Shown: piece by piece, positions 2 to 50,466 of the stretch
Layout of the letters: each line of letters starts with the position of its first letter
Numbering within the stretch: the first letter of the stretch is position 1
Program-made: the position numbers and the translations under genes
DNA from: Bacteroidota bacterium
GTDB lineage: Bacteria > Bacteroidota > Bacteroidia > UKL13-3
NCBI GenBank assembly: GCA_947477885.1
Contig: CANJUD010000015.1
Span: 1 to 60,686 of the forward strand
DNA length: 60,686 nucleotides
Reading direction: 5' to 3'
Notes under the pieces: model-generated
The model's database searches: none
What the model was told of the DNA's origin: nothing
The model's input: only the letters and a program-made list of their open reading frames with translations

Positions 2-394
2 GATAATGTATTATATGATAGTACTTCATCTATTTACTTTCCGCCCACGGGCAGGTATTATGTGCATGTGGTGGATGGGAATGGGTGTATAGCTAATTCC
101 AATTCGCTACAGCATACTGGTATGAACTACCTAGAGCATATAGATAATTGGATCCGTGTGTATCCGAATCCAGTGAGCGATATGCTGTATATAGAGTACC
201 CTCCCATTCTGGTTGGTGAATACACCAACCAGAGGCAGCAAAGAAATATTGTAATATATGATATGCTCGGAAAGAAAGTATATAATACTATCACGAATGG
301 AGAAAGATTATATAGTATATCTATCGGGCATTTGCCTAAAGGGTTATATATACTTTCTGTAGGGGAAGAAAAAGTGAAGTTAGCTGTTGAATAA
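2..394 (+). CDS. C-terminal end of a secreted T9SS protein (5' end outside window)
   Basis: The reading frame is open from the window edge to the TAA at 392-394, so only the last 130 residues of a larger protein are seen. It holds the end of an Ig/PKD-like repeat and a type A T9SS sorting domain (core RVYPNPVSD, later YDMLGKKVY and GLYILSVG), which directs export across the outer membrane. DNA and protein are almost identical to the end of the 1049-residue protein at 2793-5942 (7 mismatches in 415 bp, two changing residues: L to V and W to L). It is therefore a close paralogue or product of gene conversion. An internal GTG at 62 is not a believable start because the homologue continues upstream. 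Confidence 0.9.
   Translation, partial: DNVLYDSTSSIYFPPTGRYYVHVVDGNGCIANSNSLQHTGMNYLEHIDNWIRVYPNPVSDMLYIEYPPILVGEYTNQRQQRNIVIYDMLGKKVYNTITNGERLYSISIGHLPKGLYILSVGEEKVKLAVE
209..232 (+). repeat. Palindromic element (GGTTGGTG family) inside a coding region
   Basis: Perfect 10-bp arms (ctggttggtg / caccaaccag) around a 4-base loop. It lies in frame within the T9SS sorting domain, where it is read as LVGEYTNQ, between two beta strands of the domain. Relatives lie at 5757, 16780, 34372, 44982 and 50315. Confidence 0.85.
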
Positions 395-2792: not shown

Positions 2793-5700
2793 ATGAAAGC
2801 TATTTTTCTATGGTTATTGTTATGTATCGCTTTTAGTGTATATGCCCAAGAAGGAAATAATTGGGTATTGGGCAAATTTGGAGGTATTGATTTTAACAAT
2901 AACCCGGCACATGCCTTTAAATCTTCCATTTTCAGTTATGATTATAAAAAAGATTCTAACGCTGCGGATTATCCCCAATCCATTTCAGACTGTAAGGGAA
3001 AACTATTATATTATATTGGTGGTGACACTTTTATATGGAACAGAGAACATAAGCTTTTGCCCTCGTACTACTTATTAAAAACAAGGAGCATTAATAACTT
3101 TTTTGTCCCCTCGCCCAATAATGATTCTTTTATTTATCTTTTCAGGGTACGTGGCACTGGATTAGAATATTCTATTATCAATAATTACTTAGACAGTGGC
3201 AGGGGCGATTTTGAAGTTGTGAATCAAAAAGTTACAGACTCTATTGGATATAACACATGCTTTATTAAGCATAAAAATGATACCGATTATTGGATATTGA
3301 CCAAAACGAGTCTTTATACTATACATGCCTATTTGCTTACCCAAACTGGAATTTCTAAAACTCCAGTAATTTCTAATTTTATAGGTTACAAAAGCTGTTG
3401 CCACGGAAATGAACCTTATATACGGACATCCAATAATGGTAAATTTATTGTCTCAACCTATACCGACAGCAATCAATGTATATCCTACAAGCTATACAAT
3501 TTTAACAGGACTACCGGGATGTTGTCGTTCAACCAGGACATAATACCCCTTTCCATTAAGTTTAAAGCGCAGTATGCCCATTTTTCGTTTTCACCAAACG
3601 ATAGCATTTTATATTGCTTAACGACCAAATATCCAAAACTCGATAGTCAAGTTATTTATCAATTACCCACATATGATACTATAAAATTCACACAATCGAT
3701 ACCTATTTATGCAAATGATGGAACAGTCAAATATGGCATAGCTAGATCGCAATTGGGGCCAGATAACCGCTTGTACTTTGGTCTTTCTGCAGACTCAACC
3801 TACCGTGCACTTAGCTATATCAAATACCCTGATTTATGGGGCAAAGGTTGTGAACTTGTATTAGATGGCATCAAATTGCTACAAGGAACAATAGCCTTTT
3901 CACAACAGTTCCCATGTCACAGTTACCCCATCAAAAGAATAAACAACCGTTTTCAGGTAAAAGGGAGCAATACCTGTGGCAGCGATAGTACTATGCAATT
4001 TACTGCAGATGCAGATAGTGCGTTCAGTGCTTTCCGTTGGTATTTCGGAGATGGGGATAGTACAGATGGAAAGAGTGTGTCGCATACCTATAAAGGCGCA
4101 GGAAACTATTATGTGCGATTGGCATGTACCCTTGGGCCCTGTGGTTATAAGCAATGGGTGGGAGATAGTGTTACTGTAAAGCTACAACCTATATTAACTT
4201 TTAATACGCAGAAAAATGTATTATGTGGTTATCAAACCATAGATGCTAGTATTGGTTATAAATATACAGATACTTTGCATATCATATGGGGTGATGGGAA
4301 GGATACTTTAATAATGGGTGGTAACAATAATATACTTGCCAATATCAATTTGCAACATATATATAATAAAAGCGGCAGCTACAATGTAAGTTGCAAAGTA
4401 TGGAATTTCTTCTGTAATGATAGTGCCGCAACAACTTATAATATAGTTGTAGATACTATACCCAAGGCAAGTTTTGCATCAGATTATACTACAACTTGTG
4501 GTGCAAAAACTGTATCACTTTCAGATACTTCAAAATTTGATAGTGTTATAATAAACCGTACTTGGCATACATATAAACCCAGTGGTTTTGATACAAGTAT
4601 TATAACAGGAACTGTTAATAATATGTCTTTCTTATTTAATGATACGGGAGTGTATTCTGTTAAATTACTAATACAAAGCAAACAGGGTTGTATAGATTCA
4701 TTGGAGAAGATTAACTATATACAAATAAACCCAATACCTGTTAGCCAAATAAGTGGCAAAACAAAGTGGTGCGGTGCGGATTCGACTACGCTCACCGTAA
4801 CAGGAGGTATGCGTAATATATGGAGCACGGGAGATACAACGGCATCTGTATTTTTAAAACCTGTAACATCAAACTATTATAGTGTGCTTGTTACCAATAT
4901 ATATAATTGTTCTGTTAAAGATTCGGTTTATATAAGTGTTGGCAAAATTGTAACACCCTATTTCACGCCCAATTATCTCCAAAGCTGTGGAAACAGCGCT
5001 ATCACCCTTATAGATAGCAGTGGCGGTATGGATAGTATTATACAGCAACGAAAATGGACTATATATTATCCTAACAATATCATCAAACAATATGATACAG
5101 TTAGTAGCAACAAACTAAAACTCATTGTACAGGATACCGGTTATTATCATGCCAAACTGATATATATAACGAAACAAGGTTGTATGGATTCATTAACCAA
5201 AACAAATGTATTCCATATACTACCACAGCCAGCTGTATATATAGATAGTCCCAGCCATAACCCTTTGTGCTTTGGGGATAGTTTTGTACTCACTGCAAAA
5301 CAAAAAGATATAAACTACCCACCGCTTGTAAAATATAAATGGAACGCTGGGCCAGTTAATACACCAAGTATTATAGCAGATAGCAGCAACAGTTATTATG
5401 TGAGTGCAACAAATGCCTACGGTTGCGGGGCACAGAGCAATACCGTGAAGATAGATATATTGCCACAATTGTTTGCCAATATTAAAACAGCCAAAGACCG
5501 ATTATATGTAATTGCTACAAGGCCTATTGCTAGTTATACCTGGTATAAAGATAATGTATTATATGATAGTACTTCATCTATTTACTTTCCGCCCACGGGC
5601 AGGTATTATGTGCATGTGGTGGATGGGAATGGGTGTATAGCTAATTCCAATTCGCTACAGCATACTGGTATGAACTACGTAGAGCATATAGATAATTTGA

Positions 5701-5942
5701 TCCGTGTGTATCCGAATCCAGTGAGCGATATGCTGTATATAGAGTACCCTCCCATTCTGGTTGGTGAATACACCAACCAGAGGCAGCAAAGAAATATTGT
5801 AATATATGATATGTTAGGAAAGAAAGTGTATAATACTATCACCAATGGAGAAAGATTATATAGTATATCTATCGGGCATTTGCCTAAAGGGTTATATATA
5901 CTTTCTGTAGGGGAAGAAAAAGTTAAGTTAGCTGTTGAATAA
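2793..5942 (+). CDS. Large secreted PKD/Ig-repeat protein with T9SS sorting domain
   Basis: A 1049-residue protein with a clear signal peptide (ends near VYAQ, residue 19). Residues about 25-370 look like a beta-propeller-like region without a recognised name. A PKD domain (about 390-465, core WYFGDGDSTDG then HTYKGAGNY) follows, then several Ig/PKD-like repeats each with a Cys-Gly or CxxDS pattern. A T9SS type A domain ends the protein (RVYPNPVSD). It starts 2 bp after the previous stop, so the two are probably co-transcribed. The end is duplicated at 1-415, and a palindromic repeat (5757-5780) is translated within the sorting domain. Likely role: surface adhesin or cell-surface structural protein; this is inference. 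Confidence 0.85.
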   Translation: MKAIFLWLLLCIAFSVYAQEGNNWVLGKFGGIDFNNNPAHAFKSSIFSYDYKKDSNAADYPQSISDCKGKLLYYIGGDTFIWNREHKLLPSYYLLKTRSINNFFVPSPNNDSFIYLFRVRGTGLEYSIINNYLDSGRGDFEVVNQKVTDSIGYNTCFIKHKNDTDYWILTKTSLYTIHAYLLTQTGISKTPVISNFIGYKSCCHGNEPYIRTSNNGKFIVSTYTDSNQCISYKLYNFNRTTGMLSFNQDIIPLSIKFKAQYAHFSFSPNDSILYCLTTKYPKLDSQVIYQLPTYDTIKFTQSIPIYANDGTVKYGIARSQLGPDNRLYFGLSADSTYRALSYIKYPDLWGKGCELVLDGIKLLQGTIAFSQQFPCHSYPIKRINNRFQVKGSNTCGSDSTMQFTADADSAFSAFRWYFGDGDSTDGKSVSHTYKGAGNYYVRLACTLGPCGYKQWVGDSVTVKLQPILTFNTQKNVLCGYQTIDASIGYKYTDTLHIIWGDGKDTLIMGGNNNILANINLQHIYNKSGSYNVSCKVWNFFCNDSAATTYNIVVDTIPKASFASDYTTTCGAKTVSLSDTSKFDSVIINRTWHTYKPSGFDTSIITGTVNNMSFLFNDTGVYSVKLLIQSKQGCIDSLEKINYIQINPIPVSQISGKTKWCGADSTTLTVTGGMRNIWSTGDTTASVFLKPVTSNYYSVLVTNIYNCSVKDSVYISVGKIVTPYFTPNYLQSCGNSAITLIDSSGGMDSIIQQRKWTIYYPNNIIKQYDTVSSNKLKLIVQDTGYYHAKLIYITKQGCMDSLTKTNVFHILPQPAVYIDSPSHNPLCFGDSFVLTAKQKDINYPPLVKYKWNAGPVNTPSIIADSSNSYYVSATNAYGCGAQSNTVKIDILPQLFANIKTAKDRLYVIATRPIASYTWYKDNVLYDSTSSIYFPPTGRYYVHVVDGNGCIANSNSLQHTGMNYVEHIDNLIRVYPNPVSDMLYIEYPPILVGEYTNQRQQRNIVIYDMLGKKVYNTITNGERLYSISIGHLPKGLYILSVGEEKVKLAVE

Positions 5943-5963: not shown

Positions 5964-5967
5964 AGGG

Positions 5968-6003
5968 GATTGCCACGTCGGAAGCCTCCTCGCAATGTCG
6001 CGT
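5968..6003. repeat. Fragment of a dispersed repeat (cggaagcctcctcgcaat)
   Basis: The same words (gattgc, cgtcggaagcctcctcgcaat) recur in the larger copy at 49564-49699. It lies between two convergent genes and has no coding role. Confidence 0.6.
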
Positions 6004-16650: not shown

Positions 16651-16779
16651 GAGGTAAAATTAGGAAATGGCGAGATATTATACAAGAACTATATATATAC
16701 TAATTTGTCTCTTCGCTGCGATTCGCCGCCGCGAACTGTGCCCTCCTCTGTGTCCTCTGTGGTTAAGTTTAAGTATGCC

Positions 16780-16806
16780 TGTGGTTGTGTGTTTTCACCA
16801 ACCACA
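16780..16806 (+). repeat. Palindromic element (GGTTGGTG family), intergenic
   Basis: Arms tgtggtt (16780-16786) and aaccaca (16800-16806) around a 13-base loop that ends in cacc. Flanking gcct matches the copies at 34372 and 50315. Confidence 0.6.
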
Positions 16807-31747: not shown

Positions 31748-31937
31748 TAAACAGTGATCAGTAAACAGTAGTCAGTGGCTGACGCCTGATTTTAATTATA
31801 ACGTCATTGCAATTTGTCATGCTGTCCCGAATGGTCGGGATTATCGAAGCATAGACAAATTAGGAGCATACTTCCAAACGCCGTATTCGATGAACTCAGA
31901 CTGACAGTTTCATTAAATTATATAATACTTCACCCCA
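31748..31937. repeat. Intergenic repeat-derived region
   Basis: Holds cagtgatcagtaaacagt words, gctgacgcctgatt (also at 50290 and 51029) and gtcatgctgtcccgaatggtcgggat-x-cgaagcat (31817-31852). No gene. Confidence 0.6.
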
Positions 31938-32327: not shown

Positions 32328-32413
32328 TAATATTTACATAAGCCTGCCATCACAAAATCACCAACAAAAATCTCCTCCTCACCCCAAATTACTGGCCACT
32401 GATTACTGTTTAC

Positions 32414-34333: not shown

Positions 34334-34371
34334 ATTATCAGGTGGAAACACTTTACACCACCATTTATGCA

Positions 34372-34389
34372 GTTGGTGAAAACACCAAC
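34372..34389 (+). repeat. Palindromic element (GGTTGGTG family), intergenic
   Basis: gttggtg / caccaac arms with aaaa loop, in the 147-bp gap between yidC and prfB. A second small hairpin (ggtg...cacc, 34341-34361) precedes it. The flank ccacaggcagtaac resembles the other copies. Confidence 0.7.
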
Positions 34390-34480
34390 CACAGGCAGTA
34401 ACACAAAAGCGAAAAAGAACCAATACTCAGGTCTCACTTAGGGGAGATATAAAGGGGATAACTGTAAAACATAACAAGAT

Positions 34481-43772: not shown

Positions 43773-45023
43773 ATGATTTCACAACGACAACTTTTTTTAT
43801 TGCACAATGCCCAAACTTCTCCAGCCCCGCTGATGATAGAAGTAGCAAAGGCTGAGGGCAACTACCTTACTGACACTGCTGGCAATCAGTATTTAGATTT
43901 CCTTTCTGGCGTATCGGTATGCAATGTGGGACACCGGCATCCGCATGTGTTGAAAGCCATTTATAATCAATTGGATAAATATATGCATACGATGGTATAT
44001 GGGGAATTTATACAATCGCCGCAAACCTTGCTGGCAGCTAAACTAAACGAGCATCTAAGCCCCAAATGGAATAACGAAACCTTATCGGTTTACTTTTCAA
44101 ATTCAGGAGCTGAAGCTATTGATGGAGCATTAAAATTAGCCAAACGAGCAACGGGCCGATCAGGTATTATAGCTTTTAAAAACGCCTACCATGGTAGTAC
44201 TCATGCGGCATTGAGCCTGATGAGCAATGAAGAATTTAAAAATCCTTTCCGCCCTTTATTGCCAGATGTAAGGTTTCTCGATTTCAACAATTTTGAGCAA
44301 TTAGAATCTATAAATTCTGAGTGTGCTTGCGTGGTGTTAGAAATTATACAATCGGAAACGGGCTATACTTTGGGGCAAAATGATTGGTTAACTGCTTTAA
44401 AAAATAAATGCACTGAAACAGGAACACTATTAATAATAGATGAAATACAAACTGGTTTTGGAAGAACCGGAACCTTGTTCGCATTTGAACAAACAGATAT
44501 CACACCTGATATACTTGCATGTGCCAAAGGCATGGGCGGTGGGATGCCCATCGGGGCTTTCATCGCTCCAAAATATTTGATGGATACACTTAGTAATAAC
44601 CCAGTACTTGGTCATATCACAACTTTTGGAGGACACCCAGTATGTTGTGCTGCATCTCTGGCAACCATGGAAGTAATAGAAAATGAAAACCTATTATATA
44701 GTGTGCCTGAAAAAGAATTGCTCATGAGAGATTTATTGAAAGGGAACAAAACGATAAAAAATATTAGTGGCAAAGGATTGATGCTTTCGCTTGAATTTGA
44801 AAATTTTGATCAGAACAAAACTATTATAGATAAGTGTATAGAAAAAGGAATGCTTACTGATTGGTTTCTGCATGCGGCGAATAAGTTGCGGTTGACTCCG
44901 CCGTTGACGATTGGGGAGGATGATATTAGGAAGGCGTGTGGGATTATATTGGAGTGTGTAAAGGAGGCCCTACAAGTCCATTTGGTTGGTGGGGACGCCA
45001 ACCAAGGACAATTCGGTACTTAA
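43773..45023 (+). CDS. Class III aminotransferase with repeat-derived C-terminus
   Basis: A 416-residue PLP enzyme of the acetylornithine/ornithine aminotransferase type: SNSGAEAIDGALKLAKRATG, PLP-contact DEIQTGFGRTG (Asp223) and Schiff-base Lys252 (ACAKGMGGGMPIGAF), then HITTFGGHPVCCAA. Substrate not determinable. The true fold appears to end at about residue 401 (ILECVKEAL); the final 15 residues (HLVGGDANQGQFGT) are encoded by the palindromic element at 44982-45005. Confidence 0.9.
   Translation: MISQRQLFLLHNAQTSPAPLMIEVAKAEGNYLTDTAGNQYLDFLSGVSVCNVGHRHPHVLKAIYNQLDKYMHTMVYGEFIQSPQTLLAAKLNEHLSPKWNNETLSVYFSNSGAEAIDGALKLAKRATGRSGIIAFKNAYHGSTHAALSLMSNEEFKNPFRPLLPDVRFLDFNNFEQLESINSECACVVLEIIQSETGYTLGQNDWLTALKNKCTETGTLLIIDEIQTGFGRTGTLFAFEQTDITPDILACAKGMGGGMPIGAFIAPKYLMDTLSNNPVLGHITTFGGHPVCCAASLATMEVIENENLLYSVPEKELLMRDLLKGNKTIKNISGKGLMLSLEFENFDQNKTIIDKCIEKGMLTDWFLHAANKLRLTPPLTIGEDDIRKACGIILECVKEALQVHLVGGDANQGQFGT
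44982..45005 (+). repeat. Palindromic element (GGTTGGTG family) forming the end of a coding region
   Basis: Arms ttggttgg (44982-44989) and ccaaccaa (44998-45005). It is translated as LVGGDANQ in the same frame as the copies at 209 and 5757 (LVGEYTNQ). A half copy with gacaccaaccaaggacaa follows at 45073-45090, outside the gene. Confidence 0.8.
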
Positions 45024-45358
45024 TCCGTGTAATCCATGACTCATAAAAAGTGACGAGTGTGGAAGCATTGGGGACACCAACCAAGGACAATAAGGCAGAG
45101 GTTATATTATGAACCAGACTAATCATGTAAATCAGTTTAATCAGTTGTTAAGACCGCGTGGGCATTTGCGGCTGCGTGAGGGACAGAAGCCAACACGCAG
45201 TAAAGTGGATGGCCGACCCGCGTTGGGGCACGCCCAAAACACCGTCCTTAAAAACAGAAACCGATTAATCCTTATCCACAAATTGTGAGCATCGCCAAAA
45301 TCAATTATATATATACTAATTGTTTATTTGTACTTGAACAATTATCCCCTTTATTTCC
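45024..45358. other. 335-bp intergenic region made of repeats
   Basis: Half GGTTGGTG element (45073-45090), gaaccagactaatcatgtaaat words (45110-45150), the 70-bp repeat at 45168-45240, then an AT-rich stretch. A single DnaA-like TTATCCACA at 45272 is alone. No gene. Confidence 0.6.
45168..45240 (+). repeat. Dispersed 70-bp repeat (gagggacag...cacgcagtaa)
   Basis: Same order of words as the minus-strand copy at 26231-26303: gcgtgagggacag, aacacgcagtaaag, ggatggccgaccc, gggcacgcccaaaac. Confidence 0.75.
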
Positions 45359-49563: not shown

Positions 49564-49699
49564 CGTCATTGCAAGGAGGATGCGTTTGCCTGTGTGCCGG
49601 AGCGACGTGGCAATCCCAGTGAGTGTGTGCACGGAGAGATTAAGTTCCCGAGCATACTTCGAGGAGATTGCTTCGTCGGAAGCCTCCTCGCAATAACGG
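49564..49699. repeat. Dispersed inverted repeat (cgtcattgcaaggagg ... cctcctcgcaataacg)
   Basis: Arms cattgcaaggagg (49567) and cctcctcgcaata (49683) face each other with an internal gcgacgtggcaatccc / gattgcttcgtcgg pair. A fragment lies at 5968-6003. Non-coding gap between the convergent MBOAT and GNAT genes. Confidence 0.75.
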
Positions 49700-50247: not shown

Positions 50248-50466
50248 TTACGATTTACGATTTACGATTTACCCCGCCGCGGCGGGTTGCTGACGCCTGA
50301 TCTATTATACTGCCTGTGGTTGTGTCTTGTGACCAACCACAACGGCCGATTGATTTAAGAACAAGGATTAACGTTCGCCGCGGCGAATTGATTTTAGAAG
50401 TTGCTGACGCCTTATTTTTTTATACTTAACTTCAAATGCAAATATATAAAAAATTAATCAATTCCC
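50248..50466. repeat. Repeat-rich gap: acgattt tandem, ccgcggcggg palindrome, gctgacgcc words
   Basis: tacgattt occurs three times in tandem (50248-50271), followed by ccccgccgcggcgggt (50272-50286) and gctgacgcctgat; gctgacgccttatttttt occurs at 50403-50420. The same set recurs at 50989-51040, on the other side of the thioesterase gene. Confidence 0.7.
50315..50341 (+). repeat. Palindromic element (GGTTGGTG family), intergenic
   Basis: tgtggtt (50315-50321) and aaccaca (50335-50341) with gtgtcttgtgacc between; preceded by actgcc as at 16780 (atgcct). Confidence 0.6.

Follow-up and report, generated by a model that had tools for sequence, protein, structure and literature searches.

The DNA stretch analysed here, a Bacteroidota contig of 60,686 nt (assembly GCA_947477885.1, contig CANJUD010000015.1, C15 below) that we refer to in full as the window, contains a short palindrome that lies between genes and is also read in one and the same frame inside proteins. 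The locus raises the question of what kind of element the palindrome is and why its translated copies should share a frame. The palindrome most likely represents a RAYT-associated REP element, and its uniform frame a result of selective survival and not of targeted insertion, a reading to which we assign a probability of roughly 0.88.

Copies of the element within the window

The copies found in the window and the genes that host them are given in Table 1. The codons at 209 and 5757 (CTG GTT GGT GAA TAC ACC AAC CAG AGG CAG) and at 44982 (TTG GTT GGT GGG GAC GCC AAC CAA GGA CAA) confirm the sequence-only reading in that the palindrome is translated in one common frame at all three positions. 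Its count of three genes stands for the number of coding sites, but only two of these are independent, since positions 1-300 and 5549-5848 form a 300-bp duplication with 98% identity that comprises a T9SS sorting domain and, within it, the REP. The 5757 copy is located within the C-terminal sorting domain of a 1049-aa T9SS protein, and the aminotransferase has a C-terminal extension, most of which is made up by the REP. Among the three intergenic copies proposed at the same time, the one at 34372 has an exact core, whereas the 16780 and 50315 copies, which on the minus strand read TGTGGTTGGTGAAAACACACAACCACAGGCA and TGTGGTTGGTCACAAGACACAACCACAGGCA, respectively, are degenerate, and both keep the tail.

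Table 1. REP copies and their host genes in the window (contig C15).
Feature	Position	Strand	Context
REP copy, loop AATA, tail AGGCA, translated LVGEYTNQRQ	209..237	+	T9SS type A sorting domain, beta1-beta2 loop
REP copy identical to that at 209, translated LVGEYTNQRQ	5757..5785	+	duplicated 300-bp segment
REP copy, loop GGGA, tail GGACA, translated LVGGDANQGQ	44982..45010	+	C-terminus of class-III aminotransferase (ArgD-like)
Partial REP copy GGGGACACCAACCAAGGACA, reduced to right arm and tail	45070..45089	+	directly downstream of the aminotransferase
Intergenic REP copy, loop AAAA, tail AGGCA, exact palindrome core	34369..34397	+	
Degenerate intergenic REP copy, loop AAAA, tail AGGCA on minus strand	16776..16806	-	
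Degenerate intergenic REP copy, GTTGGTC-ACAA-GACACAAC variant, tail AGGCA on minus strand	50311..50341	-	
Host gene: PKD-repeat protein, T9SS type A sorting domain (TIGR04183, PF18962)	2793..5942	+	
Host gene: 3' end of paralogous T9SS protein	2..394	+	cut by contig end
Host gene: class-III aminotransferase (TIGR00707 argD, PF00202)	43773..45023	+	

A tagged hairpin dispersed through the genome

The element had initially been written too loosely; its real core is GTTGGTG-N4-CACCAAC, and most of the copies are missed if the gap is set to 8 nt. With up to two mismatches, the core is found at 92 places in the whole 3.12-Mb genome versus 10 for the reversed pattern, and a fuller pattern at 57 places versus none for its control, which excludes chance genome-wide. 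A curated set of 67 copies was kept, for which the correct tail was required; the matches at C3:114974, C7:128751 and C9:27635, where the tail is absent, were rejected as chance occurrences. Judged from the genome stretches around them, the curated copies are mostly extragenic, with about 10 of the 67 located within coding sequence.

The REP unit is 29 nt long and consists of a 10-bp stem, a 4-nt loop and the tail AGGCA or GGACA. Aligned in one orientation, the copies follow the form (N)TGGTTGGTG-4-nt loop-CACCAACCA(N')-tail AGGCA/GGACA, while on the opposite strand a 5' tag TGCC(T) or TGTCC precedes the hairpin, which is the layout of a REP; written single-stranded, the tagged hairpin is TGCCTGTGGTTGGTGTTTTCACCAACCAC. 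The copies fall into a class with the loop AAAA or ACAA and the tail AGGCA (class 1, 39 copies) and a class with the loop GGGA or AGGA and a tail that is GGACA or close to it (class 2, 25 copies). The stem pair -3/+20, three bases outside the core, is of the Watson-Crick type in 56 of the 67 copies and occurs as all four pair types, compared with 19.7 pairings expected from the columns, and this covariation shows that the hairpin is conserved. Flanking target duplications, which the sequence-only reading had proposed to look for, are absent, matches between the flanks being no commoner than in shuffled sequence. Close pairs of copies are mostly direct in this genome, and inverted pairs 26-33 nt apart recur in a sister genus. 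A variant in which the inner G-C pair has become C-G (GTTGGTC-N4-GACCAAC), a further compensatory change, is found at C1:414059, C5:5834, C3:264370 and at 50311-50341 of the window.

RAYT genes and their link to the hairpins

A search for a mobilising enzyme, likewise suggested from the window, revealed two RAYT genes, both with hairpin copies of their own on their flanks. The first one (C1:65675-66187) is a 171-aa ORF situated between REP copies at C1:65328-66751, with six flanking copies in all, and contains the motifs MPNHIHLLW and YIHNNP. It matches NF047646 (REP-associated tyrosine transposase) with an E value of 1.6e-22 and 79.9 bits, just under the cut-off of 80, and its score is also under the cut-off of PF01797, while a profile built from its family has TnpArep (PDB 4er8) as the first match, with an E value of 0.0011. 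The second RAYT, on contig C18, is 68% identical and is flanked by copies of its own variant GGTTGGCG..CGCCAACC, in which the inner pair is compensated.

Relatives of these RAYTs are found in Bacteroidota and in a few Chlorobiota and Ignavibacteria MAGs, and the hairpins accompany them there as well. Hairpin density in the relatives is 2.43/kb near the RAYT versus 0.26/kb farther off, an approximately 9-fold difference, and 57 of 80 named RAYT loci have the same hairpin type on both sides, mostly with a YGCC or GTCC tag pointing outwards. The palindrome type follows the RAYT tree, on which the outer stem base changes 3 times as opposed to at least 14 times in 100 shuffles, so that hairpin and enzyme co-segregate. 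Such linkage suggests that the elements are actively mobilised by the RAYT. The aminotransferase copy at 44982 belongs to the GGACA-tailed (TGTCC) class, for which no cognate RAYT was found in this genome, and relatives of the TGTCC, CC-loop class occur in a separate RAYT clade (loci L114, L115 and L223). A third, distant RAYT (31% identical; C5:9100-9567, L110) has an in-frame TAG and no such hairpin nearby.

Filled and empty sites in proteins

Comparison with homologues, another check proposed at the outset, bears out that the residues are an addition, as element-free homologues do not have them. The same-genus ArgD orthologues (90% and 87% identity) stop before the REP, at ILESVG and IIESIEMCG, respectively, and the ArgD-like protein of the window continues to ECVKEALQVHLVGGDANQGQFGT; other relatives are also devoid of the tail. 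In a sister genus, the isoleucyl-tRNA synthetase (IleRS) has the insert in three species and an empty site in five congeners (G069, G066, G070, G063 and G018). In G068 and G065 the insert reads VGED(T/I)NQGH in an otherwise near-identical gene (VGEDTNQGH in G068, a net gain of 21 nt), and in G006 a shortened version is present that is still in-frame.

The T9SS sorting domains accommodate the element at two places, the beta1-beta2 loop and the loop following the DxxG turn. Compared with a profile of element-free sorting domains, the loop gains up to 7 residues. Three of six coding copies are found in sorting domains, which account for about 1.8% of the coding DNA (probability about 1e-4, the enrichment being approximate because of shared ancestry among the paralogues), and the sorting-domain loops are the main site where coding insertions concentrate. 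At C1:545132-545458 (L067), a decayed T9SS sorting domain in tandem contains REPs in both loops and in both orientations. A MobA-like gene has C-terminal REPs in two species (L033 at C7:141173-141238, and L293): in the own genome a copy of the AGGCA class stands before one of the GGACA class, and in G001 a copy of the GGACA class is read in another frame.

One frame prevails among the coding insertions

Coding was scored on both sides of the copies in this genome, in two congeners and at loci of several more distant genomes, and orthologous and duplicated sites were merged by judgement into independent insertions, the T9SS copies of G002 (L307, L316) being assigned to loop 1. Nine of the ten independent coding insertions are read in the VGxxTN frame (phase 0), namely those in T9SS loop 1 in sense and in antisense, in T9SS loop 2, in a second, unrelated T9SS protein (L305), in a linker preceding a sorting domain (C2:91185), in IleRS, and at the C-termini of ArgD, of the MobA-like protein of the own genome and of L329; the sole exception, in another frame, is the C-terminus of the MobA-like protein of G001. 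Such a bias has a probability of 0.0004 with equal phases and of 0.0017 when a stop in one frame is allowed for, in a count where the independent insertions are few and the T9SS copies are partly of shared ancestry. ORFs overlapping the copies at C3:105575 (antisense to a T9SS domain), C1:342896 (no family match) and C6:12296 (a low-complexity repeat ORF) were left out of the count.

Copies at apparent N-termini served as a control (C1:377173, C2:67593, C12:25075 and C17:32575 and, at other loci, L249, L274, L276, L278, L296, L308 and L309). These copies were excluded from the coding set, as the sequence preceding the element is either short or, for the most part, scores as non-coding; all 11 are probably untranslated and probably lie upstream of the true starts. 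The VGxxTN phase is found in 3 of the 11, about the expected third, and the listing of frames that had been asked for thus shows a clear enrichment in the coding copies.

The preference for the VGxxTN phase can be accounted for by its codon properties. The phase is free of stops on both strands and contains neither Trp nor Cys; on the tag-3' strand it reads LVG(D/E)NTN(Q/H)RQ. Of the four element variants compared, three have their most hydrophilic reading in this phase; in the GGGA-loop variant, it is surpassed in hydrophilicity by one frame that contains Trp. The reading from the other strand, found for an insert in the same T9SS loop, is VGVVTNH. As no other frame is stop-free on both strands and without Trp and Cys, selection alone can yield the one-frame pattern, and the pattern seen for inserted repeats thereby obtains a simple test.

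The shared frame would be uninformative on insertion if the T9SS copies had a single origin and had spread only via duplication or gene conversion of sorting domains. The copies at 209 and 5757 do belong to one duplication, and several of the hosts are paralogous; however, the copies are found in two different loops, in both orientations, as both REP classes and in unrelated proteins, which makes a single origin unlikely.

Origin of the coding copies

RAYTs are HUH Y1 enzymes, and the RAYT would be expected to recognise the single-stranded hairpin together with its tag. According to the REP model, a non-autonomous hairpin of about 29 nt would be spread by its cognate RAYT and land many times, the surviving copies being mostly intergenic. 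Coding copies would survive where the net length keeps the frame, at tolerant places such as the T9SS sorting-domain loops, C-termini and one IleRS loop, and when read in the VGxxTN frame, and duplication of T9SS tails would add to the uniformity of the frame. The inserted peptides themselves are presumably neutral.

Alternatively, the copies could be retained by a function of the hairpin in RNA or DNA, such as that of a terminator, an mRNA stabiliser or a protein-binding site, with the coding copies as a by-product. The hairpin is indeed conserved by covariation, and such roles have been proposed for REPs elsewhere (PMC3733652), but the aligned copies have no T-run after the stem, no Rfam family matches the element, genomes of a single family contain anything from 0 to about 57 copies, and orthologous sites are empty. 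A function of this kind is unlikely as the general explanation, although single copies may have a secondary role as hairpins.

The Rickettsia palindromic elements (RPEs), to which the element had been likened, provide the best-known example of repeats that insert into proteins (PMC2229807, PMC3767692). A similar family, with no transposase of its own and specialised for protein insertion, would give the same outcome, as RPEs enter conserved, solvent-exposed protein regions in frame (PMC2229807, PMC3767692), and the window sites at 209, 5757 and 44982 are all in coding sequence. The two are alike in that a palindrome occurs repeatedly and is inserted in frame into conserved proteins at tolerant places; yet RPE-1 to RPE-7 are described as elements of 100-150 bp, or as CGTC-tagged (RPE-4 and RPE-6), with no linked transposase, whereas the present unit of about 29 nt has a TGCC or TGTCC tag and no CGTC, is mostly intergenic and flanks RAYT genes, which places it in a RAYT-associated REP family instead. 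The RAYT linkage led us to reject a Rickettsia-type element without an enzyme, and an RPE-like family is very improbable. Even less tenable is the idea that VGxxTNxxQ was itself selected as a motif of the protein, forming for instance a sorting or binding loop, with the palindrome as a codon side effect: one frame is dominant and several T9SS sorting domains have the peptide in common, but the same 29 nt with the same tail lie mostly outside genes, which rules the motif out as the origin, the hosts ArgD, MobA-like protein and IleRS are unrelated, most of the 150 listed T9SS sorting domains do not have the peptide, and the same loop also accepts the opposite-strand reading.

Relation to known REP systems

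RAYT-associated REPs and REPtrons (TnpA_REP systems) are best known from gamma-proteobacteria. The elements described here share with them the tagged hairpin of 20-40 nt in many, mostly extragenic copies, the RAYT flanked by inverted copies, the co-evolution of RAYT and REP type and the absence of target duplication. They differ in the tag, which is GTAG in the known systems and here TGCC(T) or TGTCC on a GTTGGTG-CACCAAC stem core, and recurrence in T9SS sorting-domain loops is a feature of the present elements. No GTAG or GTGG tetranucleotide is found at the foot of the stem, which excludes the GTAG superfamily but not RAYT-associated REPs overall, since TnpA_REP subclass 2.6 (RAYT group 5) reportedly does not use GT[AG]G (PMC6006769). 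That subclass comprises mostly Bacteroidetes proteins of about 179 aa with atypical flanking structures (PMC6006769), and the present RAYTs have the same NH[LIV]H and YIH[QN]NP motifs, a similar length, an SS motif after the core and flanking structures that likewise are not of the GTAG type and recur elsewhere in the genome. In contrast to the WQ motif of the subclass, most members here have FWE or IWE at that column, and the structures termed "atypical" in the subclass are here a single hairpin type tagged YGCC or GTCC. Because the WQ motif is absent, subclass 2.6 is named as the closest known group and the present RAYT is not filed as its member.

For the GTAG and CGTC families, Di Nocera et al. 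(2013, PMC3733652) described REPs inside ORFs of many species, tRNA synthetases being one group of host proteins. As in that study, the intragenic copies here are wholly within ORFs and translated, and a tRNA synthetase is among the hosts; the earlier cases are mainly from Proteobacteria, including Rickettsia, whereas the present ones are from Bacteroidota, with one dominant frame and T9SS tails. In the part of the literature covered, we found neither Bacteroidota nor T9SS sorting domains described as hosts of in-frame REPs. While in-frame REPs as such are already known from Proteobacteria (PMC3733652), the Bacteroidota case and the T9SS hot spot appear to be new. The palindromes of a large Bacteroidota group thereby gain a defined hairpin, tag and partner enzyme, filled and empty sites are documented inside an essential enzyme, IleRS, and T9SS sorting domains are indicated as a place where mobile DNA is absorbed by proteins.

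The CGTC-tagged REPs, including RPE-4 and RPE-6, have been reported without an associated transposase (PMC3733652). The TGTCC class, with its RAYT clade noted above, might be a relative of this CGTC/TGTC-tagged superfamily; such kinship is improbable, but if true, these RAYTs would be the long-missing transposases of protein-inserting palindromes generally.

Other repeats are also present in the window. A second palindrome family, GTCCCGAATCTTATTCGGGA(G/C), has six copies, at 32413, 39796, 46721, 46787, 46816 and 50962, three of which are clustered at 46.7-46.8 kb. A 33-nt direct repeat, AGGGGATTGCCACGTCGGAAGCCTCCTCGCAAT, is found at 5964-5996 and 49662-49694 in copies that are 91% identical, and a short repeat around TTGCTGACGCCTKAT occurs four times, at 31776, 50287, 50401 and 51026.
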